A stretch of 41,939 bases of DNA from Eubacteriales bacterium (lineage in GTDB: Bacteria > Bacillota > Clostridia > Lachnospirales > Lachnospiraceae), in the NCBI GenBank assembly GCA_030536575.1, contig JAUNPS010000040.1, positions 1-41,939 on the forward strand. Reading direction: 5' to 3'. Made by a program: the position numbers and the translations under genes. Shown piece by piece: positions 1 to 8,917 of this stretch. A model generated the notes under the pieces. The model saw only the letters and a list, made by a program, of their open reading frames with translations, was not told the DNA's origin and ran no database searches. Position 1 is the first letter of the stretch; the number at the start of each line of letters is the position of its first letter.

Positions 1-1
1 C

Positions 2-196
2 TTACGCATATTAGAAATATTAGAAGAGCAAAATCACACCAAATATTGGCTTTACAAACAGATGGATTTGAGCTATCAGAATTTCAATCGCATGGTAACT
101 AATCAGACCACTTCCATTCGTTTTGAAAACCTTGATACGCTCAGCACATTACTTGATTGTCCAATCGGCGATTTATTCGAGAAAACAGACAATTAA
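2..196 (+). CDS. XRE-type helix-turn-helix regulator, C-terminal part
   Basis: The reading frame is open from base 2 to a TAA at 194-196, so the gene enters the window from the left and only its last 64 residues are visible. The peptide reads like a compact Cro/CI-type DNA-binding domain: helical segments rich in Leu/Ile, then NQTTSIRFENLDTLSTLL and an ending in GDLFEK. That ending is typical of the small YozG-like XRE regulators in which the last helix is followed by 'LLxCxIGDLFE'. Such proteins usually control mobile or defence modules. The start and promoter lie outside the window, so partner genes and autoregulation cannot be judged. Confidence 0.75.
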   Translation, partial: LRILEILEEQNHTKYWLYKQMDLSYQNFNRMVTNQTTSIRFENLDTLSTLLDCPIGDLFEKTDN

Positions 197-240
197 ACAC
201 CAAGAAATGGGTGCTGTGGCTAACTCCCTACATTAGTTTT

Positions 241-510
241 TTACATTCTGATACATTCTAAAAACAGGCAGACGGCACACTGAAACCCTTTTATAAAGCC
301 GCTTTCTTCTGCCGCAGACGCAATCAGAAGACCCATGTCCTTAATCAGCTCTTCCTTTTCTGTCATCCACAAGCCTTCATGTTCTTTCAATATGCTCAGG
401 ACTTCTTTTTGAAGTTCACAGCTGATTTTTTCAGATGAATCTTCCTTTATCATATTTACATACAGATTTCTTAATATCCTGTCTTTCTCTAACTCTTTTT
501 CGCAATCCAT
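241..510 (-). CDS. Small acidic helical protein, DUF6809-like
   Basis: This is an 89-residue protein with a good start: a GGAGGG stretch lies about 12 bases upstream of the ATG at 510. It is predicted mostly helical and charged. The C-terminal segment ESGFIKGFQCAVCLFLECI resembles the 'AFIxGFRLGxxLMLEV' tail of small Lachnospiraceae proteins grouped as DUF6809, whose function is unknown. That family link is from memory of the motif, not a search. The gene stands alone between a + strand regulator tail and the prfH/VWA remnant, and nothing around it indicates a job. Confidence 0.6.
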   Translation of the reverse strand: MDCEKELEKDRILRNLYVNMIKEDSSEKISCELQKEVLSILKEHEGLWMTEKEELIKDMGLLIASAAEESGFIKGFQCAVCLFLECIRM

Positions 511-708
511 ACTCGTTCCTTACCCTCCATTACTTGAATCCGATTCTGCAAAGAATATAACCACACCTCCCACTATTATACTTATTTCATGCCTCATTTC
601 CTACTTGATAGCACCGTTGTTGATTCATTCTCCACTACTTTCTTTTAGCTCCGCCCCGCTCCTCTAACAGTCTAAAACCCCCTAGTATTTGTCAAATATC
701 CCAATCCC

Positions 709-746
709 CAAAAAGGCTAGTAATGAGCTTCTTTCCGTTACTAGCC
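709..746 (-). terminator. Rho-independent terminator
   Basis: A perfect 9-bp stem (GGCTAGTAA / TTACTAGCC, 715-746) is followed on the minus strand by TTTTT. It lies about 100 bases after the end of the VWA remnant and would have ended that transcript. The plus-strand side has only a weak ATTTT tract. The remainder of the 541-842 gap shows no convincing gene. Confidence 0.8.
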
Positions 747-842
747 ATTTTCTTCCATCACTTGTATCACACTTTTAATCTTATTTTACCAATCTCAATT
801 TTCTCCTCCCTCCAATCGCCCCATGGTTGTCAGTTCTTCCTC

Positions 843-1204
843 TCACTCATAATAAAACACCTCTCTCTTTGCCCGAAATGGAAATCTCTTCCTCCTCGGC
901 ACCAGAAAGGCGTGTTCCCGCCGGATATGTATTTTCTCTTCAATCTCCCCATCCGTGATCAGCAGGATTGGGCCGTCCTTCGGGAAATCTTTTGCATTTG
1001 CCAGTAAATCCACCCCCGGCTGGAGAATTGTGCCGTCCCGCCCTTTGACTGCTACCTTTCCTGCAATCTCCTCCAGCGCAAGATATCCGGCGTCATACGC
1101 CTGCGCGTCACAGAACGCCTCCTTACATAAGGTACTTCCCGTACCGCCGCATAGCTGGCAATACTCCCCAGCACCATCCCCAGTTCCTTTGCCGACATGG
1201 AACC
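843..1204 (-). pseudogene. Remnant of a VWA (von Willebrand A) domain protein
   Basis: The minus strand carries the C-terminal part of a VWA-domain protein. In one frame it reads SAKELGMVLGSIASYAAVRE followed by VPYVR. A shift of one base near 1117 then moves the sense to the frame FCDAQAYDAGYLALEEIAG...GRDGTILQPGVDLL, with DGPILLITDGEI and a terminal EVFYYE. The GGT-to-LITDGE layout matches VWA proteins that act with MoxR-type ATPases. The N-terminal part, including the DxS of the MIDAS site, is missing because the gene is joined to a prfH piece at 1197-1204. With a lost N-terminus and a frameshift it cannot make a working protein. Confidence 0.8.
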
Positions 1205-1532
1205 GCTCAAACCGGATATCCTGTTCTTTGCAGATTTCTTCTGCTTCCGGTATTACACTCACATCTACGAACCAGTTCTTCCGTTTATGGTTCGGTCGGA
1301 ACGGACTTTTGCAAATCCACCGGATACTGCCCTCCTACTCTGCCAGGTCGCACTCAGCCGAAAACAGAATGGAAGTATAACAACCTTCCGTTTTCGCCGC
1401 ATGGCTGGACAGCATTGTGATATCCGGGTATCCTTTTGTCAGCACCTCATATAATTTCCGAACCGCAAGCTCACATTCAGCCGAACCCTGACCTGAACTT
1501 AATTGCACAATCATATATTCTGTATCTCTCAT
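1197..1532 (-). pseudogene. prfH: Remnant of peptide chain release factor homologue PrfH
   Basis: The minus strand encodes the N-terminal half of PrfH, a release-factor-like protein usually paired with the RNA ligase RtcB and linked to rescue of damaged ribosomes. Recognisable pieces are IVQLSSGQG near the start, WICKSPFRPNHKRKNWFVDV and VSVIPEAEEI, ending at RFERFH. An in-frame TAG at 1335-1337 sits where family members usually have Leu in 'LxxLEGS'. The sequence breaks off exactly before the expected GGQ peptide-release motif and continues as VWA sequence. No rtcB gene is nearby. The start could be the ATG at 1532 or the ATG six codons later. It is a dead gene. Confidence 0.85.
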
Positions 1533-1693
1533 TGGAAATATCCCCTGACTATCTCCTGAGAGACTCGCTTACCTCTAATGAAATCAGCAAAATACAGGAA
1601 TTAACAGAATTATGGGAGAATGCATCTCCAAGCCAGCAGGAGATTGCAGCAGCAATGATACAGTCCCTTTTTGAGCACACTAAAAATTCATAA
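1533..1693 (+). pseudogene. Possible C-terminal remnant of an XRE regulator
   Basis: The plus strand reads LEISPDYLLRDSLT followed by an amphipathic helical tail (IQELTELWENASPSQQEI) and a stop at 1693. The 'LxISPDYLL' string is common in XRE regulators just after the HTH domain. Upstream the same frame runs antisense through the prfH remnant, so the 5' part of this gene appears to have been lost at a junction near 1530. A chance open frame cannot be excluded. Confidence 0.4.
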
Positions 1694-1860
1694 AGAAAAA
1701 GTAAATTATCGAATATGCTTAAGCAGAAAAGCTTGGGAGAATCACAAATTTTATCTTGCAAATTTATAATTTGTTATATCACTTGGCATCATCTGATTTT
1801 TAGAATCATCAGCTACCTTTCCTTATTATTAAAAATTAAAATATACTAACATTCATTTAA

Positions 1861-1990
1861 TGAAAGCAGTTGCCGATGGTAACCAAAAAGGGTTGTGTCA
1901 CAAAATCAGATCGTTCTTACGTAAAGTCCCCTGTATAGAGGGCTGTGAGAATGCTTCTGGCATGGGATACAGCTCTCGGTTACCTGCTGA
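1861..1990. other. Structured AT-flanked region, candidate oriT
   Basis: This stretch upstream of the mobilisation-like operon contains several inverted repeats: CCCT/AGGG around GTATAG (about 1929-1942), GAGGGCTGT (1938-1946) pairing with ACAGCTCTC (1969-1977), and GGTAACC (1878-1884) facing GGTTACC (1978-1984). Origins of transfer are commonly found directly upstream of relaxosome genes and are rich in such repeats. No known nic sequence is recognised, so this is a positional inference. Confidence 0.3.
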
Positions 1991-2184
1991 TATTTTATTT
2001 ATGTATATATAGAAAAAATAATAAGAAATATAAGTTTATATATAACAATAATATACCTATTTACATACCAAATATATACTATATTCTAATGTCGGATATT
2101 TCCATATAGTAAATAGTAATTGTACTCATAACAAAATAATAAAAAACAACACCAACCATCATAACCTGACGAAAGGAGTATTTT
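1991..2184 (+). promoter_or_regulatory. AT-rich leader of the mobilisation-like operon
   Basis: This very AT-rich stretch has a perfect 8-bp inverted repeat, TACTATAT (2077-2084) and ATATAGTA (2104-2111), before the GAAAGGAG ribosome site of the first gene. A promoter and an operator for the ribbon-helix-helix protein would be expected here, but no single -35/-10 pair stands out. The rest of the 1694-2184 gap shows no gene. Confidence 0.35.
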
Positions 2185-2499
2185 ATGTCCGAAAAGCAAT
2201 CTCAGCAAATTAAAGCTCGTTGTGCTCCCTCTTTTAAACAAAAGGCAGAAACATTCGCAAACAATCACGACACCAATATTTCTAACCTGATTGTTAGTAC
2301 CGTAGATACTTTTATGAAATACGATCAGCCTATTAATGAGAATACCGGAATGGGCTATGTCTGTTCCACGGTATATAATATCACCCGAAACAAGGTATTA
2401 AATCTTATTAATTTAGACCCAAACATTCCTGACCATACCAAAGAGAAAATACGAAAGGAGCTGGATAACATTGATCTCTGCAAACTTAATCATCAATAA
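2185..2499 (+). CDS. Ribbon-helix-helix protein, likely relaxosome accessory or operon repressor
   Basis: This 104-residue protein has a strong ribosome site (GAAAGGAG, 7 bases before the ATG). The N-terminal 50 residues fit a ribbon-helix-helix fold: a short basic strand (QQIKARCAPSFK), a first helix (KAETFANNHDT), the NIS turn and a second helix (LIVSTVDTFMKY). A second helical part follows (about 60-100). Proteins of this kind bind DNA as dimers and, next to relaxase genes, serve as accessory factors at oriT or as autorepressors. It is the first gene of a four-gene operon, and its 3' end overlaps the mini-relaxase gene by 29 bases, suggesting translational coupling. The role is inferred from fold and context. 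Confidence 0.7.
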   Translation: MSEKQSQQIKARCAPSFKQKAETFANNHDTNISNLIVSTVDTFMKYDQPINENTGMGYVCSTVYNITRNKVLNLINLDPNIPDHTKEKIRKELDNIDLCKLNHQ

Positions 2500-2962
2500 A
2501 GGAAAGTACGATAATGATGACGCTATTTTCAAAACAATTAACTATATCTCCCGTCTTGATAATGAAAATATTTTTTACTACGGCATCTGGCCCCCGACCA
2601 AGGAAAACTCTATCACCCTGTTTGAAGAGCTTCGTTGCCGCTTCCCAGAGAACACCTGTCCCCAAAAAGTACAACATTTCTGGATTACTTATAAAAGCCT
2701 AAAAGATACGGTTTTCATAAACACATTTGCTGACAGAATTGCTTTTTTCTTCGCTCCTGTATATCCGATCTGCTTTAGCACCCACAATGATAAGAAACAC
2801 TGGCATTCCCACTTTGTCGTATCAACCACAAGCTATTTCCCAGATCAACCTCCCCTTATTGGCGCTACGTGGCGTTCTTATCTTAATATGGTTGAAAATT
2901 TCTCTCTGAGCAATGGCATCCTGTTAAAAGAAATGTATAAGATTCCGAATGGTATATGGTAA
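2471..2962 (+). CDS. Minimal relaxase-domain protein (PF03432-like) with intact histidine motif
   Basis: This 163-residue protein starts at a TTG (2471), supported by AAGGAG ten bases upstream. Its layout follows the relaxase/mobilisation nuclease domain: AIFKTINYISR near residue 18, a middle segment VQHFWITYKS, and the metal-binding motif THNDKKHWHSHFVVST near residue 105-120. This gives H-x-D-x(3)-H-x-H followed by hydrophobics, the three-histidine site of HUH nicking enzymes. The closing WRSYLNMVENFSLSNGILL matches the helix normally ending the catalytic domain. Usual relaxases continue for 200-600 residues; this one stops. A Tyr in the N-terminal INYIS or FYYG segment could be the nucleophile. 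Predicted to nick DNA at oriT or an origin; activity is unproven. Confidence 0.7.
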   Translation: MISANLIINKGKYDNDDAIFKTINYISRLDNENIFYYGIWPPTKENSITLFEELRCRFPENTCPQKVQHFWITYKSLKDTVFINTFADRIAFFFAPVYPICFSTHNDKKHWHSHFVVSTTSYFPDQPPLIGATWRSYLNMVENFSLSNGILLKEMYKIPNGIW

Positions 2963-3041
2963 CTCAATAATAAATAACAGCAAACACAACAATATAGTAA
3001 AAAATATTATAATCTACCATCTTTGAAAGGAGATCTAAATC

Positions 3042-3479
3042 ATGAATGTTAATTTGATTATTCCCGGTATCTATTACAATAACAATGTCGTTTCTGACAT
3101 CCTCAACAATTTATCCATTGACAATATGGTCAGTATGTATATTTCTGATATATACCCTACACTGAATACATATGCAGCAGAAAGCCAGCGTTTTCTTTAT
3201 CCCGATCATGCTGGAAACCAGCAAATACAGTATTTCTGGCTTACTTTCAAAAAAGAAGAATTTCCCCTTTCCGTAGCCCAAGCTTTTTCCGGCGATTTTA
3301 CAGGCTGTTTGCAAAAGCTTTCCCCTCTTCGTTACAGCGTTCACAGCGTTGGCGAATATTTTTGTACCCGGGTTTCCATATCTACCGCAAGCTGTTATCC
3401 CTGGTATGAAATGCTCGCACAAGGGACATGGTATTCTTATTTACTGGATAACTTCGAAGATGTTTCCGAAGGTTATTAA
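3042..3479 (+). CDS. Paralogue of the mini-relaxase lacking the catalytic histidines
   Basis: This 145-residue protein has a clear AAAGGAG site 11 bases before its ATG. It aligns with the preceding mini-relaxase along its length: NLIIPGIYYNNN against NLIINKGKYDND, IQYFWLTFKKEE against VQHFWITYKSLK, VSISTASCYPW against VVSTTSYFPDQ, and GTWYSYLLDNFEDVS against ATWRSYLNMVENFS. In the metal-site region it has YSVHSVGEYFCTRVSIST: the first His remains, but the Asp and the H-x-H pair are gone. It should therefore be unable to nick DNA and may partner with or regulate the active copy. It is also shorter at the C-terminus. The paralogy is seen directly in the sequence; the regulatory role is a guess. 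Confidence 0.7.
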   Translation: MNVNLIIPGIYYNNNVVSDILNNLSIDNMVSMYISDIYPTLNTYAAESQRFLYPDHAGNQQIQYFWLTFKKEEFPLSVAQAFSGDFTGCLQKLSPLRYSVHSVGEYFCTRVSISTASCYPWYEMLAQGTWYSYLLDNFEDVSEGY

Positions 3480-3494
3480 AGGAGTGAATAGAAG

Positions 3495-3677
3495 ATGCTT
3501 GAACAATACGACGATATCCTCACCGTTTATGAAGTAGCAGAGATCATGAAGATCGGAACGACCCAAGCATACAAGCTTGTACGTTCCGGCAAATTAAATA
3601 CCTTTAAAGAGGGAAAAGACTGGAAGATACCGAAGCAATCTCTAATACAGTATATCATCCAGCAAGGAAATCATTAA
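3495..3677 (+). CDS. xis: Excisionase-family helix-turn-helix protein
   Basis: This 60-residue protein has an AAAGGAGTGAATAG ribosome site before its ATG. The sequence has the winged-HTH form of the excisionase/MerR-like family: ILTVYEVAEIMKIGTTQAYK as helix-turn-helix, then LVRSGKLNTFKEGKDWKIPK as wing, then a C-terminal helix. Such proteins bind att-site arms and direct a tyrosine integrase toward excision, or act as small regulators. It is the last gene of the operon, 15 bases after the paralogue. A matching integrase would be expected next; instead only a 5'-truncated one lies on the other strand at 5954-6445. Confidence 0.85.
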   Translation: MLEQYDDILTVYEVAEIMKIGTTQAYKLVRSGKLNTFKEGKDWKIPKQSLIQYIIQQGNH

Positions 3678-3686
3678 ACTACCAGA

Positions 3687-3728
3687 AAAAAGCATCCCGG
3701 AATTATAGTGATTCTGAGATGCTTTTTC
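3687..3728 (+). terminator. Rho-independent terminator of the mobilisation-like operon
   Basis: The stem GCATC..GGAAT / ATTCT..GATGC (3692-3722) is followed by TTTTT. It lies 15 bases after the xis stop codon and closes the rightward operon. Confidence 0.8.
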
Positions 3729-3766
3729 CTTGTTTCTTTGTAAATCTTTGAGTATTTTGCTCTAAA

Positions 3767-3785
3767 TGGTACAAAATTGGTACAA
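3767..3785. repeat. Direct repeat TGGTACAA, 11-bp period
   Basis: TGGTACAA occurs at 3767-3774 and 3778-3785. Short direct repeats of this kind serve as arm-type integrase binding sites near excisionase genes, which fits the position, but two copies are weak evidence. Confidence 0.3.
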
Positions 3786-3834
3786 GGCTAAAACCTCATT
3801 TCCGGCGCTGCTATGTAAATACCCTCCATCCGAA

Positions 3835-4481
3835 TCACAGACAATACGTTTCTTTTGTTCCTTTAAACGCAGATATTAGCATCTTTTTTACTTCCTGATC
3901 GTCTTTGAATACAGTCATCCATACAGAAAAGAATCCAGTCGCTTTTGCAAGCATTTCTATCTGGTTCAGGTATCTCTGTCTTTCTGATGATCCCTTTACT
4001 TCGTTCCAGCCCTGCTTACTTTCCAGCGCATAATTGCGCGCTTCATTTCTCACAGCATAACGCCGATCCTTTACCGCTGGAGTAAGAGGTACATGATCCA
4101 GCTTCACAAGATGGAACAGATTCTCCGCTTTCTGTCTGATTTCATCCCCTTGTTTTTGCAGATACTCGTCATTTAATTTCGGGATATCTTCATCGTATAG
4201 AAACGCATGGAAGGTATCATCTTCATCTGGCCAGAGATAGTTCTCCTTATCGCCATTTCCTACAATCGTGCCTTTGCGGGTATTACAGTATTTGCAGGAA
4301 AGCAGCAGATTTTCCCATGCCGTTTCATCGCCGCCTCTCTATGCTCAACTTCCGGTACATGATTGATGGACATTTCACAGAAAGAACAGTAGGCTCCTAA
4401 CCGTTCCTCCAAATACGGTTCTGCTTCCTGATACTGATTAAATTGCCTATCCGGCGCTTCTCCTTTGTCCACTGGCCGCAT
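3835..4481 (-). pseudogene. ptuB: Septu HNH endonuclease PtuB, frameshifted
   Basis: The gene starts at an ATG overlapping the ptuA stop (TAATG), as is usual for this pair. The first frame gives MRPVDKGEAPDRQF, then YCSFCE and EVEHRE, the first zinc/HNH half. Near 4328-4340 the frame shifts. The second frame continues GDETAWENLLLSCKYC and NTRKGTIVG, the second CxxC and HNH half, and runs on to a stop at 3835. Both halves match HNH proteins of the PtuB/TIGR02646 kind, which cut nucleic acid when PtuA is activated by phage. The reading-frame break is visible in the sequence; a sequencing error is possible. If real, the nuclease is dead. Confidence 0.8.
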
Positions 4482-5815
4482 TATCCTTCGACCTCCACCT
4501 TTTTTTCCAAATACTTCATCTTCATCCACGCATAATACGCCGGGTTATCGCTATATTCAGCAGAAAGAACATCCAACCGTTCCTTTAACTCCTGCAATTT
4601 TTCCTGAGATACATCACCTTTCAGAGCGTTGAAATATTCCTCCGCGGCTTTGTACATTTTTAGCTTCTTTTCGCTGTATTGTGCTACGGGAACTTTCATA
4701 ATATCTTCTGCGATATCTTCAATACTCTGGCCTGAGTATTCTTCATCTAAAATGGTGTCTAAGGTAATCAATTCACCCGGCTCTAAGGACTGGATGATAA
4801 AGGGCGAATGGGTAGCGCAGATAAATTGAACCCTTGGGAATAATTCTTTTAAAATTCGGACAATCCTCCTCTGCCACGTTGGGTGCAGGCTTAAATCCAG
4901 CTCGTCTATAACCACTACACCCGGCGTCAGCTTCAACGTATCTTTTTCAAGGTATGGATTCAGGATACACATTTTGGTTGCTATATCGGTGACGATTTTA
5001 ATGACATTCCGGTATCCATCGCTTAACGCTGAAAAATCAATAATCGTACCGTCTGAGTTTTTTACCGCGATCTCCCCATATCTGGATGAATATAAAACCT
5101 GTTGTCCTGGAGATAATTCGTCCTGCAAGCTATATTTTACCGCGTCCATGATTACCTCATAAGCGGGAAGTGGTTTCCCATCGTTTTCCTCAGAGGCCAG
5201 ACTTCCTAGTAGTTTAATATACTCAAAAGAAGTCTGATTTCCGCGTTTCTGATCCAGACAGCGCTGGTACGCATCTGTCCTTCCGGGAGTTTTTTCGATT
5301 TCCCCTGTCCGGTTTTCATTCCATAGCCTGGCAGAACTCAAATACAGCACCAGCGGATATATCTGGCCTTCATCGGAACCATCTGCTGCTTTGATTGCCT
5401 TTTCCCATTCGGCAACAAATTCCCGCATAGGATTTTTTCCAACAAATTTTGTCCTTCCACCTTCTTTTTCCAGGCTTCTCACGCATTCGATTATTTTTTT
5501 GTTCCACACGATCTGACTGCTGACCGTACAGGGAAACTGTTTTACCGAAGACGTTACTGCAATGCCTTTTGTTGGCTTTAATGACTTCCTTAAAACATCA
5601 TTGTCTGAAATGTTATGACCGAACCTGCTCGGTACATATTCTTTAAAAGCCGCTAAATAAGCGCCCAAAATGACAGTAGCAGCCTCTAAAACCGTAGTTT
5701 TTCCCGATGCATTTTTGCCGATAAAAACATTCATCTGTGGATTCAGTTCGTATGTAGAATTATCAAACCTTCTAAAATTCAATAATTCTATATTTTTTAA
5801 ATAAAACCTCTCCAT
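4481..5815 (-). CDS. ptuA: Septu ATPase PtuA (ABC/RecF-like AAA)
   Basis: An AAA/ABC-type ATPase of 444 residues. Visible motifs are Walker A GKNASGKTT (residues 33-41), a signature-like FSALSDGYRN, Walker B GVVVIDELDLSLHP and the switch-like CATHSPFII, followed by a helical C-terminus. The start is placed at the second in-frame ATG (5815), which has GGAGG six bases upstream; an earlier ATG at 5827 lies over that ribosome site. PtuA forms the ATP-sensing complex of the Septu anti-phage system and holds PtuB in check. Its 3' end overlaps ptuB, here frameshifted, so PtuA may now be an orphan. It has its own promoter just upstream. Single OLD-like ATPases are an alternative family label. Confidence 0.82.
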   Translation of the reverse strand: MERFYLKNIELLNFRRFDNSTYELNPQMNVFIGKNASGKTTVLEAATVILGAYLAAFKEYVPSRFGHNISDNDVLRKSLKPTKGIAVTSSVKQFPCTVSSQIVWNKKIIECVRSLEKEGGRTKFVGKNPMREFVAEWEKAIKAADGSDEGQIYPLVLYLSSARLWNENRTGEIEKTPGRTDAYQRCLDQKRGNQTSFEYIKLLGSLASEENDGKPLPAYEVIMDAVKYSLQDELSPGQQVLYSSRYGEIAVKNSDGTIIDFSALSDGYRNVIKIVTDIATKMCILNPYLEKDTLKLTPGVVVIDELDLSLHPTWQRRIVRILKELFPRVQFICATHSPFIIQSLEPGELITLDTILDEEYSGQSIEDIAEDIMKVPVAQYSEKKLKMYKAAEEYFNALKGDVSQEKLQELKERLDVLSAEYSDNPAYYAWMKMKYLEKKVEVEG

Positions 5816-5895
5816 GATATCCTCCATGCGTCTTTACGCATCATTTTCTCTCTGCTTAATACAAATTTGCTCACACCTCACGCATCATATGGTAT

Positions 5896-5924
5896 AGTAT
5901 ATCCATTTTCAATCATAAAATCAA
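5896..5924 (-). promoter_or_regulatory. Sigma-A promoter of ptuAB
   Basis: On the minus strand TTGATT (5919-5924) is separated by exactly 17 bases from TATACT (5896-5901), about 80 bases upstream of the ptuA start. It is a good match to the housekeeping consensus. Confidence 0.7.
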
Positions 5925-5935
5925 TAATCCCAACT

Positions 5936-5968
5936 GAAAAAGCAGGAGAAGAGTCATTCTTCCCCTGC
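5936..5968 (-). terminator. Terminator after the integrase remnant
   Basis: GCAGGGGAAGA / TCTTCTCCTGC form a stem at 5942-5968, and the minus strand continues into TTTTTC. The integrase stop codon lies inside the stem. It separates the remnant from the ptuAB promoter. Confidence 0.75.
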
Positions 5969-6451
5969 CTCAGTACTCTCTAATGCCTGTACCCATTCCT
6001 GTTTCTGCTGTTTTAGCTTAGCCTCAAAATTGTCAAACTCACGCTGCTTTAATTCTTTTGTAACGGTTGTATAAATGTCCAGCGTCACATCTGAACGGCT
6101 ATGTCCGCAGAGTTCCTGTATCACTTTAATATTTACGCCAGCTTCCACCAACCGGGTAGTAAACGTATGCCGTAAGGAGTGACAGGAAAAATTCGGAAGC
6201 AGTACCGGGTTCTTTTTCCCTTTTAACAGCTGCTTGTCATTACAATCACGAATGATACGCCGGAGCGCTTTATTAAGCGTCCCCTGATGTTGTAAATTCC
6301 CGAAGCGGTTAGTAAAGATAAAATTTCGATAACCATCCACCGTAACATCACAGCTTATTCCGCCCAATTCCTGGCATCTCTTTTCTTCCATGAATGCCAC
6401 TTTTACCTCCTCTGTCATGGGAATTTGCCGATTGCCATCCTTGGATCCCAA
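5954..6451 (-). pseudogene. int: Tyrosine recombinase/integrase, C-terminal half only
   Basis: Only the second half of a phage-type integrase catalytic domain is present. It has GNRQIPMTEE, the HxxR box CHSLRHTFTTRLVEAG, the second His in ELCGHSRSDVT and the nucleophile region LDIYTTV, followed by a charged tail. The N-terminal arm-binding and core-binding domains and the first catalytic Arg ('TGLRxGE') are missing: at about 6447 the sequence changes abruptly to a spoIIID-derived fragment. The TTG at 6451 is only the first possible codon and lacks a proper ribosome site. The protein could not recombine DNA alone. It presumably belonged to the element that also carried the xis gene at 3495. 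Confidence 0.85.
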
Positions 6452-6571
6452 ACTTCTTCACCGTAGCATTCGTCTCAATAATATAATTCGCAATTTCCAC
6501 TGCCCGCTCTTCAACATAATCTTTCAAGTAGAAGCCTCCAAAGACGCTGTTTTTACGGTGTAAGCAAAGGA
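6447..6571 (-). pseudogene. spoIIID: 5' fragment of spoIIID, copy A
   Basis: The minus strand contains a GGAGG ribosome site and a TTG start (6527). It then encodes LKDYVEERAVEIANYIIETN followed by ATVKKFG, the N-terminus of the sporulation regulator SpoIIID. It lacks 12 bases (residues RQTA) compared with copy B at 8741-8917 and is cut off at the integrase remnant. Identity to copy B runs through the leader up to 6571, only 25 bases from the rloB stop. Confidence 0.85.
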
Positions 6572-6595
6572 TTTTCCCCGTATGCATAACCGAAT

Positions 6596-7297
6596 TTAAT
6601 CTGCATATCGCTTTTTTATTTCTTCCGGCATATACTTCACCAATTCCTCCACTAGCTCATATACCTTCGTTCCCGGCGCAATTTCCGTCGGAGTCCTGCC
6701 TTGTCCATCTCTTATGATTCGTTTTGCATATCGAATCGCCAATTTGGGATTCCCTTTTTCCATAAGAATCTCAAAAATATTTTTCATATTCTTTTGATAC
6801 TTCCCTAATCCCAACTCTTTGAATTTCTCGTTCAAAAAGGAAATGTACTCTGTCCGATGGTTGTTCGCTGTATAATAAGCGAAATGAAGGAGGAACCAAA
6901 ATTCAATACATTCGTTGCTCCACGCCGCATGATACTGCAACTCTGGATTGTCTTTGTTTAACTGCTCTGCCCTGCCTACTACGCCGTTAAAATCGCTGGC
7001 AGGAAAGCTATCTTTATCATAAACGCACCAAATTTGCCCTTTCTCTATTCTGTTTCTCCTCACATAATCCTCTGCCATACCAATTACTCGCATAGTTTCT
7101 GCCTGACATGGCTCTATTTCAATCAACACCATATCTTTATAAATTGGATTTTCCTCTATCAACTTTTTGAAACCTGCAAAATATTGCGGTTCCGTTTGCT
7201 GGCCCTCACAGAAAATATAGTAACGGTACTTCTTTAGCTCCAGATGTTCCTGGCGACGTTTCTTTTTCCACTTCTCCATTCCGGCTTTTTTAGACAC
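6596..7297 (-). CDS. rloB: RloB-family protein, TOPRIM-like nuclease partner
   Basis: This 233-residue protein overlaps the upstream ATPase gene by 8 bases and starts with GTG (7297); an ATG six codons on is an alternative. After a basic N-terminus it has IFCEGQQTEPQYF (catalytic-type Glu at 31) and CVYDKDSF (Asp 94 and 96), the E...DxD arrangement of TOPRIM nucleases. SNECIEFWFLLHF, a signature of RloB proteins, follows. RloB family members are encoded with ABC-type ATPases in restriction and defence islands; PARIS and OLD/Gabija systems use the same ATPase-plus-TOPRIM logic. Predicted effector that cleaves DNA or RNA when the ATPase senses infection. The target is unknown. Confidence 0.82.
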   Translation of the reverse strand: MSKKAGMEKWKKKRRQEHLELKKYRYYIFCEGQQTEPQYFAGFKKLIEENPIYKDMVLIEIEPCQAETMRVIGMAEDYVRRNRIEKGQIWCVYDKDSFPASDFNGVVGRAEQLNKDNPELQYHAAWSNECIEFWFLLHFAYYTANNHRTEYISFLNEKFKELGLGKYQKNMKNIFEILMEKGNPKLAIRYAKRIIRDGQGRTPTEIAPGTKVYELVEELVKYMPEEIKKRYAD

Positions 7298-8525
7298 CTA
7301 CAGTCCCCCAATCTATAATTTTTCTGAGATATGGGTCTGCTCCATATTTACCTTCCAGATACTGTTTATCAAACTTGGCATCCTTGCGAACCGATACCCC
7401 CTTCTCGTTTTTAAATTCTACCAAAGAATATAATTTAGAGTTTTGAGCATTTCCTTTTGCCACAAACCATATTTCATCCCGCCGGAATAGCTCGCTGTTC
7501 ATGGTAGATAAATCATGTGATGTGAAAATTAACTGCCCGCCGTTTCTATTGATGCTCAGATCTGTAAATCTTTCAATAATATTTTGAAGCAATGCAGGAT
7601 GGATTTTTGCATCCAGCTCATCAATAATCAACGTCGTTCCATACACCAGACTTTTCGCAATAAATGGCAGTAAGCCAAACAGTTTTTTTGTTCCGCTGGA
7701 TTCTTCAGATAAAGTTATTTCCGCACTATATCCGTCCACGATATGCTTTGTATATACTTCAATCCGGTCATTATCCTTTTCTTCAACTCGGAAATCTTCA
7801 ATATCCAAATCCATCTCCCGAATCATATCCAATACTAAATCTTTTATTTTCTCCGAATTTGCTACTGCTGTTCTCAACTCCTCATATGGATCACCATAAT
7901 TTAAGAAGTCTATAGAATCCTCAAACCAGCTTAAAACATCATTTACAATCTCATTCTTCTTATAGGTAATTCCAAGATAAGATAGAAGTGGCAATGTTGT
8001 GGATAATTCGTCACTTATTTTGAATTTTCCAAAATCACCCTTTAAGCTGACTTCTTCACTGTTTCTCGTAAATAATGCGGAACGGCGTCCTGTTTCCATT
8101 TTAATCCGATCCAGACTTTCGTAAAGCACAACATCCTGCTTTATTTGTAGAATGTATCTGTATTCCGCAATCTCTGTTCTAAAAAACACCTCAAATTCTG
8201 TCGGTTCATTTTTACTATCTTCCGAAAAAGCAAAAGGCTCTACCGGAATCTTCCGTACTTTATAATCACAATCATTTTTATCGCAGGTAGCGCATAAAGG
8301 TCTTAACACCTTTGAATCCAAAGTATGCAATGCTTCCAGTACATTCGATTTTCCACCGCCATTTGGCCCATAAATAACGGAAATTGGCAAGAATAATTCT
8401 CCATCTGCATCTTTAATCACTCTATCTTCATGCTCTGAAATAGCCGTCGCCTGCATGTCAAATGTCATTTCATCCCGTATGCTCTTATAATTCTTCACTG
8501 TAAATTGACATAACATATTTTCCAC
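7290..8525 (-). CDS. RloA-like AAA/ABC ATPase of a defence pair
   Basis: A 411-residue ATPase with ABC/SMC-like motifs: Walker A GPNGGGKSN (53-61), signature SEESSGTKKLFGLLP, Walker B TLIIDELDAKIHP, and a FTSHD switch. Between Walker A and the signature lies a long insertion with a small Cys cluster (CATCDKNDCDY near 77-87). The start is firm: GGAGGT lies 7 bases upstream of the ATG. It is the first gene of a two-gene operon with the RloB-family effector and resembles the AriA-type sensors of PARIS and related abortive-infection systems. Predicted to form an ATP-loaded oligomer restraining RloB until triggered. The pair appears intact, unlike its Septu neighbour. Confidence 0.82.
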   Translation of the reverse strand: MENMLCQFTVKNYKSIRDEMTFDMQATAISEHEDRVIKDADGELFLPISVIYGPNGGGKSNVLEALHTLDSKVLRPLCATCDKNDCDYKVRKIPVEPFAFSEDSKNEPTEFEVFFRTEIAEYRYILQIKQDVVLYESLDRIKMETGRRSALFTRNSEEVSLKGDFGKFKISDELSTTLPLLSYLGITYKKNEIVNDVLSWFEDSIDFLNYGDPYEELRTAVANSEKIKDLVLDMIREMDLDIEDFRVEEKDNDRIEVYTKHIVDGYSAEITLSEESSGTKKLFGLLPFIAKSLVYGTTLIIDELDAKIHPALLQNIIERFTDLSINRNGGQLIFTSHDLSTMNSELFRRDEIWFVAKGNAQNSKLYSLVEFKNEKGVSVRKDAKFDKQYLEGKYGADPYLRKIIDWGTVGV

Positions 8526-8542
8526 CTCCGTTCTATAGTTCT

Positions 8543-8570
8543 ATTATACTCATTTTTCTTTTTTTGTAAA
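8543..8570 (-). promoter_or_regulatory. Promoter of the rloA/rloB pair
   Basis: TTTACA (8565-8570), a 16-base A-rich spacer and TATAAT (8543-8548) precede the GGAGGT site of the ATPase gene. A small palindrome, GAGAT-AAA-ATCTC, lies just upstream at about 8581-8593 and could be an operator. Confidence 0.75.
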
Positions 8571-8662
8571 CAATATTTGAGATTTTATCTCATATTTTTT
8601 GTTGAAATTCTCCCCAGACACGCACACGAGGCAGCACATTTCAATAAATGCCCGTACAAAAC

Positions 8663-8698
8663 AAGCGGCAGCCCCCTATTTCTAAGGAACGCTGCCGC
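8663..8698 (-). terminator. Terminator downstream of spoIIID copy B
   Basis: A perfect 9-bp GC-rich stem AGCGGCAGC / GCTGCCGCT, with CCTTA/TAGG further pairing in the loop, is followed on the minus strand by TTGTTTTG. It lies about 45 bases after the shortened spoIIID frame. Confidence 0.6.
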
Positions 8699-8740
8699 TC
8701 TCACATACCCTTCATTATCTGATAATCCATACATATCGTT

Positions 8741-8917
8741 CTATTTTGTTACTTCCATATGTACCGTTGACTTGCTAATTCCAAACTTCTTCGCCGTCTG
8801 CCTCACCGTCGCATTCGTCTCAATAATATAATTCGCAATTTCCACTGCCCGCTCTTCAATATAATCTTTCAAGGAGAAGCCTCCGAGAACGCTGTTTTTA
8901 CAGTGTATGCGAAAGGA
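8741..8917 (-). pseudogene. spoIIID: 5' fragment of spoIIID, copy B
   Basis: A TTG start (8872) with GGAGG upstream opens a 43-codon frame. It reads LKDYIEERAVEIANYIIETN then ATVRQTAKKFGISKSTVHM and stops at 8741 after EVTK. This is the helix-turn-helix half of SpoIIID, the mother-cell sporulation regulator, which is normally 80-90 residues; the C-terminal basic half is absent. Homology to copy A includes the leader up to 8917. It could be the original gene cut by an insertion, or a transported piece. Confidence 0.85.

Follow-up and report, generated by a model that had tools for sequence, protein, structure and literature searches.

Relaxases usually carry a C-terminal region beyond their nuclease domain. 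The cassette considered here encodes a short relaxase-domain protein (MR) together with a ribbon-helix-helix (RHH) protein, a homologue of MR without its catalytic residues (the twin), and an HTH_17/excisionase-family protein, and it occupies positions 2185-3677 of a 41,939-nucleotide (nt) stretch of DNA (the window: contig JAUNPS010000040.1, assembly GCA_030536575.1, an Eubacteriales bacterium of the Lachnospiraceae). Among described systems, MOBP relaxases (PF03432; e.g., RP4 TraI and VirD2) cut the sequence (C/T)ATCCTG(C/T), whose 5' side is directly bordered by an inverted repeat, and the inverted repeats of RP4 and tfs4 are 16 and 25 bp long, according to parts of PMC3772185. The cassette resembles MOBP modules in having an RHH gene immediately before the relaxase gene, in the combination of an H-x-D-x(4)-H-x-H motif with an N-terminal tyrosine, and in an upstream inverted repeat that terminates in a CCTG↓C-like sequence (arrow, candidate nick). 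It differs in that this repeat spans ~110 nt, the nuclease domain (~160 amino acids, aa) makes up the whole of MR, and a third gene (HTH_17) and a catalytically dead twin are present.

Other systems share single traits with the cassette. In pMV158, the origin of transfer (oriT) upstream of the relaxase gene has mutually exclusive hairpins, and the catalytic residue of the MobM relaxase is a histidine, as stated in passages of PMC5863519. A likeness to MobM and the MOBV family (structures 4lvi and 5n2q) was seen in a weak profile match of MR (E = 0.037) and in the fold match of the twin, whereas MR keeps its tyrosine and the cassette has one long hairpin competing with a 5-bp hairpin. The MOBL relaxase of pLS20 is full length. 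In this Firmicute relaxosome, the RHH genes Aux1 and Aux2 lie between oriT and the relaxase gene, and no dead twin is mentioned in the consulted parts of PMC5675868. The RHH gene of the cassette likewise lies between the candidate oriT and the relaxase gene, although the relaxase of pLS20 is of the MOBL type. In IS200/IS605 elements and REP-associated TnpA (Y1 HUH) proteins, a nuclease of ~150 aa is combined with an end hairpin, and the HUH motif precedes the tyrosine. The nuclease size and hairpin of the cassette are comparable in manner of working only; MR has its tyrosine first and then HUH, the reverse of the Y1 transposon order, and the cassette hairpin stands before the RHH gene only, stem-loops seen by eye 3' of HTH_17 in some loci being taken as terminators. 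Integrative and mobilizable elements (IMEs) of the gut with relaxase, mobC, and serine recombinase genes, as described in parts of PMC12904643, also differ from the cassette in layout. A literature search over titles, the starts of abstracts, and a few passages, with subscription journals mostly outside its coverage, returned no pseudo-relaxase kept beside an active one. Based on the evidence below, the cassette is interpreted, with moderate confidence, as a mobilization module of small mobile elements in gut Clostridia, with the twin as a retained pseudo-relaxase.

Gene order and conservation of the cassette

The cassette comprises the following features in the window:

1864-2001, + strand: candidate oriT inverted repeat (covariance model, motif, folding)
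2002-2184, + strand: A+T-rich leader from the hairpin to the RHH gene (sequence)
2185-2499, + strand: RHH gene, 104 aa, probable NikA/MobC-type relaxosome accessory
2471-2962, + strand: MR, relaxase-domain protein, 163 aa, TTG start, overlapping the RHH gene; Y25, H69, H112, and H114 intact
3042-3479, + strand: twin (MR homologue), 145 aa, catalytic residues gone
3495-3677, + strand: HTH_17/excisionase-family protein, 60 aa
3686-3727, + strand: stem-loop 3' of HTH_17 (AAAAAAGCATC...GATGCTTTTT), probable terminator, found by eye and not listed by the pattern scan

The four genes are close-packed on the + strand, and AAAGGAG lies just 5' of every start (at 2172, 2454, 3026, and 3478), in agreement with the original prediction of a compact operon with good ribosome sites. 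The excisionase proposed as its fourth gene was also recovered, with matches of the HTH_17 protein to PF12728 at 4.8e-11 and to the TIGR01764 excisionase family at 4.9e-8.

Thirteen other window-type loci were available for comparison (L014, L101, L055 to L064, and L140; some stretches bear two names, namely L055 = L016, L056 = L015, L057 = L141, L058 = L017, and L059 = L019, and L054 repeats L055 from a second assembly). Counts of the twin refer to inspected loci among the profile matches listed (14 + 17 useful loci taken from two lists). RHH-MR-HTH_17 was complete, without a twin, in nine of the 13; RHH is cut in L056, L058 begins inside MR at a contig end, L061 is without HTH_17, and the MR frame of L064 has only 130 aa, with the sequence ending 113 nt later. 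In every intact pair of neighbours, RHH and MR overlap, and the start of HTH_17 lies inside MR or within ~10 nt past it. The expected recurrence of the four-gene order was thus borne out for RHH-MR-HTH_17 but not for the twin, which was found in none of the 12 loci with readable DNA 3' of MR (all but L064). The conserved system is the three-gene cassette with its hairpin, not a relaxase pair.

Among the cassette genes, conservation is highest for HTH_17: its window copy shows 55-72% identity to five relatives, and window MR only 26-33% to these five. For the window RHH protein, no family match above cut-off was obtained in Pfam and other profile scans, the best being an Arc-like PHROG (E = 0.078), and the RHH label is given because its counterparts in relatives match RHH families. 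The NikA-like family PF21983 was matched above the Pfam cut-off by the RHH proteins of L057, L061, L062, and L140, and below it by those of L014, L016, L059, and L101 and the second RHH protein of L065 (a locus of another branch, see below); the profile scan gave no PF21983 match for the RHH proteins of L060 and the window or the first of L065. NikA-like was the best match for six of nine scanned window-type RHH proteins (L014, L016, L057, L061, L062, and L140, not L059, L060, or L101).

A relaxase consisting of the nuclease domain

The stand-alone relaxase domain that had been predicted was checked against PF03432. Window MR matched this profile at E = 2.4e-4 (21.8 bits, slightly below the cut-off of 24.6), and in alignment A5, which contains 20 MRs, 19 did so at E <= 0.01 (best 5.5e-22). 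M1, Y25, H69, H112, and H114 are invariant in A5, which holds 20 of 25 MRs (L063, L071a, L071b, L073, and L078 were left out); in the 25-row alignment, the three histidines are still invariant and the tyrosine is F or H in both L071 proteins. The catalytic motif is intact as predicted, but its spacing is H-x-D-x(4)-H-x-H (HNDKKHWHSH) and not H-x-D-x(3)-H-x-H. In the sister clade (L055-L064 and L140), Asp replaces the first motif His (GVD, GLD, ALD), giving a D-H-H rather than an H-H-H metal site.

The AlphaFold2 (AF2) model of MR taken singly (pLDDT 84.5, pTM 0.83) adopts a relaxase fold, with the MobA minimal relaxase 2ns6 as its best match in the PDB (probability 1.00, TM 0.54, E = 1.1e-3); no PDB match of the MR or twin model reached E <= 0.001. 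MR measures 156-171 aa in 11 of the 13 relatives, without any C-terminal region past the nuclease domain, and HTH_17 follows directly (overlapping or within ~10 nt) in nine of the 13. Because RHH-MR and MR-HTH_17 overlap or nearly abut, no space is left for a lost C-terminal region, and MR is not a truncated protein. The possibility raised by the original prediction, that such genes are plain truncations of longer relaxases, was ruled out for the window clade by this near-constant length and the adjoining HTH_17.

A homologue of MR without its catalytic residues

The 145-residue relative of MR proved to be a real homologue, with E = 3e-10 and 31% identity in a whole-genome search and E = 2e-12 with 25% identity over 144 residues in a pairwise comparison, and on these alignments the twin is a true paralogue of MR. 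All four of its catalytic positions that are invariant in A5 are replaced (Y25 by N, H69 by Y, H112 by C, and H114 by R). The earlier claim that it had lost the motif residues holds for the Asp and both HxH histidines, as well as for the Tyr and H69, but the first motif His is retained (YSVHS). A 37-row tree joins the window twin and window MR as sisters with a support of 99/94, a placement made less sure by long branches (3.42 for the twin vs 0.055 for MR).

When the bases of the twin were shuffled, only 34 of 200000 sequences stayed without a stop, so its reading frame is not due to chance. When neutral drift of the MR codons to <=30% identity was simulated, five of 3000 runs were stop-free, with indels not counted; since neutral drift seldom leaves such an open frame, the twin is probably a retained pseudoenzyme. 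The AF2 model of the twin, predicted singly, is moderate (pLDDT 74.0, pTM 0.67) and finds its best PDB match in the MobM relaxase domain 5n2q (probability 0.98, TM 0.65, E = 0.051), a fold match that is not fully independent because the alignment used for modelling included relaxases. The twin is a lineage-specific addition and the most unusual part of the cassette.

The upstream inverted repeat as a candidate oriT

A long inverted repeat of ~110 nt, ending in GRTTRCCTGCT, precedes the cassette in 11 of 13 assessable window-type loci (the window, L014, L101, L057, L059, L060, L061, L062, L063, L064, and L140, the last by DNA and motif, unfolded), L058 not being assessable. The motif lies 184-331 nt from the RHH gene in nine loci measured; its single occurrence in the window is at 1978, at a distance of 207 nt from RHH. 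In the window, the outer stem pairs GGTAACC (1878-1884) with GGTTACC (1978-1984), and an alternative small hairpin on the 5' side, TTGCC-GAT-GGTAA (1870-1882, 5 bp), competes with the long stem. The hairpin end TRCCTGCT has only CCTG↓C in common with the MOBP nick consensus as given in parts of PMC3772185, and the candidate nick would fall between 1986 and 1987. In L055 (1-329), the RHH-proximal leader is kept and the hairpin is missing near the contig end, either as a broken copy or at an assembly edge.

Among seven aligned hairpins, two of them nearly identical, 34 pairs were formed at 89.4% (84.0 +/- 1.1 in shuffles), and 14 of the 34 showed changes on both sides, compared with 7.9 +/- 1.9 in shuffles, a number reached by one of 500. 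The covariation score was reached by none of 500 shuffles, and sliding the partners abolished the signal. A covariance model (R1), built from seven copies without the window, L014, and L101 and searched in 51 sources, recognized the window (E = 4.2e-6), L101 (7.9e-5), and L018 (0.0028, adjoining its RHH gene). The window copy was the sole R1 match at E <= 0.1 in its own genome among 150 scored candidates, and R1 gave nothing convincing beside the other short relaxases. On folding, the window hairpin scored z = -4.07 as + strand RNA, -1.58 as - strand RNA, and -1.64 as DNA, whereas both strands of the other nine of ten segments folded well as RNA, with + strand z = -3.8 to -6.6 under DNA parameters. 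A known RNA family was rejected for the hairpin, as no Rfam match was obtained (the window at E <= 1; seven loci at the gathering threshold).

Taken together, the hairpin, its MOBP-like CCTG↓C, the competing hairpin like that of pMV158, and the NikA-like RHH counterparts suggest an oriT-accessory-relaxase arrangement, and the earlier suggestion that an origin is in play at this locus is supported by a likely origin upstream in the form of a conserved, covarying hairpin.

Short relaxases in the wider family and a second pair

Short HxH proteins of the MR profile were found across the family and order, comprising at least 27 distinct proteins and at least 17 further places among the matches listed, which were mostly long relaxases. 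Open frames at the 17 further places measure 146-207 aa; four of them could belong to longer genes, three because they run up to contig ends and L111 because of its overlap with another frame. The count of short relaxases excludes L020 (a 77-aa piece), L022 and L023 (long), L074 and L077 (long/split), and L061 -1..343 (contig end). By eye, an RHH gene lies directly 5' of many short relaxases, and tyrosine integrases adjoin RHH-MR in L066, L072, L104, L106, and L107, all of other branches. An integrase beside a relaxase module is the usual IME layout. Since several of them adjoin tyrosine integrases, domain-only relaxases are likely to belong to small mobile elements, of which the window type is one branch.

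A second active/dead pair, with its own extra RHH gene, was detected in another branch (L065, 6105-7518). Its twin (7006-7518) is full length and lacks counterparts of the Tyr, H69, and HxH; a lenient profile search of the loci turned up no further full-length homologue without HxH beside an intact one. This second twin scores E = 1.1e-14 against the family profile, compared with a BLAST E of 6e-4 over 66 residues only against its neighbour, and falls in a different set of the tree (23 rows, 100/99), within which its position is not resolved. Because the two twins fall in separate tree sets, the window and L065 pairs look independent. Conservation of an active/dead pair, as originally envisaged, is therefore absent from the window clade (0/12) and is represented elsewhere by this one pair. 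In L071 (6016-7882, - strand), two short relaxases are neighbours, both with HxH and with F or H at the Tyr position.

Occurrence and signs of movement

With window MR as the query, matches at E <= 1e-3 were obtained in seven of 397 same-family genomes, two of them via long open frames (362 and 388 aa). The contig scan gave no relative with window MR and 11 loci, several of them duplicates, with L016 MR; no relative was found in plasmids with either query, in phages with window MR, or in viral contigs, the viral scans reaching close relatives only. Two further genomes belong to the window's genus; both are without the cassette and have no DNA in common with window 1-7446, one of them holding short pieces at 7447-8875. 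A third weak match in the window's own genome (C17, E = 0.008) was dropped, since none of the frames read at that place was MR-like and the A4 profile did not recover it at E <= 1e-4. L062 and L063 are 95.5% identical over 2.6 kb though recorded as different families; both are metagenome-assembled genomes, and a binning error is possible.

Mobility of the cassette is suggested by its patchy distribution, by a single sharp break on the left side, and by a copy with an internal deletion. L140, which has the cassette, and L173, which does not, share a left flank of 92% identity over 568 bp and split at a T-run right before the cassette; ~16 bp before TAACAG are alike in L140, L121, and L173, which sets the precision with which the break is placed. 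On the other side, the 804 bp common to L015 and L016 (95.5% identity) give way to divergent DNA within a few bases past the HTH_17 stop. L121 (2251-2883) is an internally deleted copy that has kept the hairpin and leader and lost the three genes, and its right flank shares ~316 bp at 93% with that of L015. MR copies occur in four of six genomes of the genus concerned, and copies stand at separate places in one genome (G059, contigs C3 and C38; G368, contig C22 and the deleted copy L121 on C11). A search for an empty site covering both flanks yielded none. In L057, the cassette adjoins ParA and RadC genes and a ParB-like gene (by eye; no Pfam match), and DNA similar to this neighbourhood occurs in L056 and L060, so the unit may exceed the cassette. 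Varying subsets of Cro-type HTH, DUF6809-like, RadC, ParB-like (by eye), and ParA genes lie upstream in L057 (1883-5174), L060, L062, and L063; their window counterpart is an HTH gene (62-196) and a weak DUF6809 match (241-510).

Proposed mechanism and alternative explanations

The proposed mechanism builds on what was observed directly, namely the gene order, the homologies, the loss of residues, and the conservation and covariation of the hairpin. The ~110-nt inverted repeat would be the origin (oriT-like), and the RHH protein would bind it as a NikA/MobC-type accessory. MR would cut at the foot of the hairpin on its 3' side (CCTG↓C) and stay on the 5' end via Tyr25, leaving a strand that may either be transferred or roll off and close again. 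HTH_17 could act as an Xis-type architectural protein or as a regulator. The twin would have arisen by duplication of MR in the window lineage, lost catalysis, and been kept as a folded pseudo-relaxase, which may bind MR or the hairpin and thereby tune nicking or operon expression.

A number of observations weigh against the cassette being such a module. No relative was found in the plasmids and phages searched or, in scans reaching close relatives only, in viral contigs, and no intact integrase was seen next to window-type cassettes, that of the window itself (5954-6451) being a fragment. The hairpin is missing from L055 (329 nt available upstream) and from L056 (cassette cut inside RHH), L014 scores no better than E = 0.21 with R1, shuffles match the number of pair types in 103 of 500 cases, RNAalifold on nine hairpins together kept only the 7-pair outer stem, and the window hairpin is not significant as DNA (z = -1.64). 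The nick core reads TACCTG here, not ATCCTG. In the proteins, the first motif His is replaced by Asp throughout the sister clade, the Tyr by F or H in the two short relaxases of L071, and the twin, missing from 12 of 12 assessable relatives, has a very long branch (3.42 vs 0.055), as expected under weak constraint.

The absence of the twin from relatives and its long branch would also suit a functionless, decaying duplicate, as would the loss of its conserved catalytic residues, but we consider this somewhat unlikely, for the frame is intact with its own AAAGGAG at 25-31% identity, drift leaves only five of 3000 runs stop-free even without indels, and a second, apparently independent pair exists in L065. 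The inverted repeat could instead be a transcribed regulatory RNA (a leader or an antisense target) and not a DNA origin, an idea prompted by the far stronger folding of the window + strand RNA than of the - strand RNA or the DNA; it is judged unlikely, given that the other nine segments fold on both strands and as DNA, as expected of a DNA inverted repeat, that Rfam holds no match, and that sequence conservation is strongest at the 3' base, where the nick would fall. The RHH protein of L059, which passes the TacA1 antitoxin cut-off, would be in keeping with a toxin-antitoxin pair made of RHH and MR or the twin; with NikA-like as the best match in six of nine RHH proteins scanned, a complete relaxase active site in MR, and an origin-like hairpin, this seems extremely improbable.

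The junctions bear on whether the cassette itself is a transposon, that is, an HUH insertion sequence derived from a relaxase and moving in single-stranded form, with its left end at the hairpin and its right end just past the HTH_17 stop, and that inserts by T-runs without an integrase. The parting of the L140 and L173 left flanks at the T-run, that of L015 and L016 just past the HTH_17 stop, the multi-site copies in one genome (G059, G368), and the presence of MR in four of six genomes of the genus all fit this scheme. Against it, there is a single left junction and no clean two-flank empty site, the right side of L173 is the region right of L015, located elsewhere in G716, the right flank common to L121 and L015 implies that the right end is not fixed, and the ParA and RadC genes adjoining the L057 and L060 cassettes make a larger unit possible; we regard a transposon as improbable. 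Less probable still is a new class of autonomous HUH element based on a domain-only relaxase, whose hairpin (at the left end), RHH, MR, and HTH_17 would move together as a unit of 1.3-1.9 kb and in which pseudo-relaxases, arising repeatedly through duplication and catalytic loss, would govern the nickase as partners in a heterodimer or as subunits that bind the hairpin.

Neighbouring genes in the window

Downstream of the cassette, a Septu-type defence pair occupies 3835-5827 (- strand), with PtuA in one frame (4481-5827) and PtuB split (3835-4107 and 4260-4529), and an AbiL-type pair occupies 6596-8525 (- strand; AbiLii 6596-7297, AbiLi 7290-8525). With the AbiL-type pair nearby, the cassette borders a defence island. 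Between the two pairs (5954-6587, - strand), a C-terminal tyrosine integrase piece adjoins the first codons of a SpoIIID-like gene, and from this sequence an element junction inside spoIIID is possible. At 843-1532 (- strand), there is a remnant in more than one frame, without a Pfam match, which by eye we take to resemble a PrfH-type release factor.

Implications for relaxase biology

If the cassette is indeed a mobilization module with a retained pseudo-relaxase, a relaxase reduced to its catalytic domain would still run such a module, as a compact system for nicking and re-closure. Short relaxases of this kind, spread through the order, can escape annotation, as may be the case where, like window MR, they fall below the Pfam cut-off. 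Under the same interpretation, DNA nicking would have a natural regulator in a pseudo-relaxase retained next to an active enzyme.

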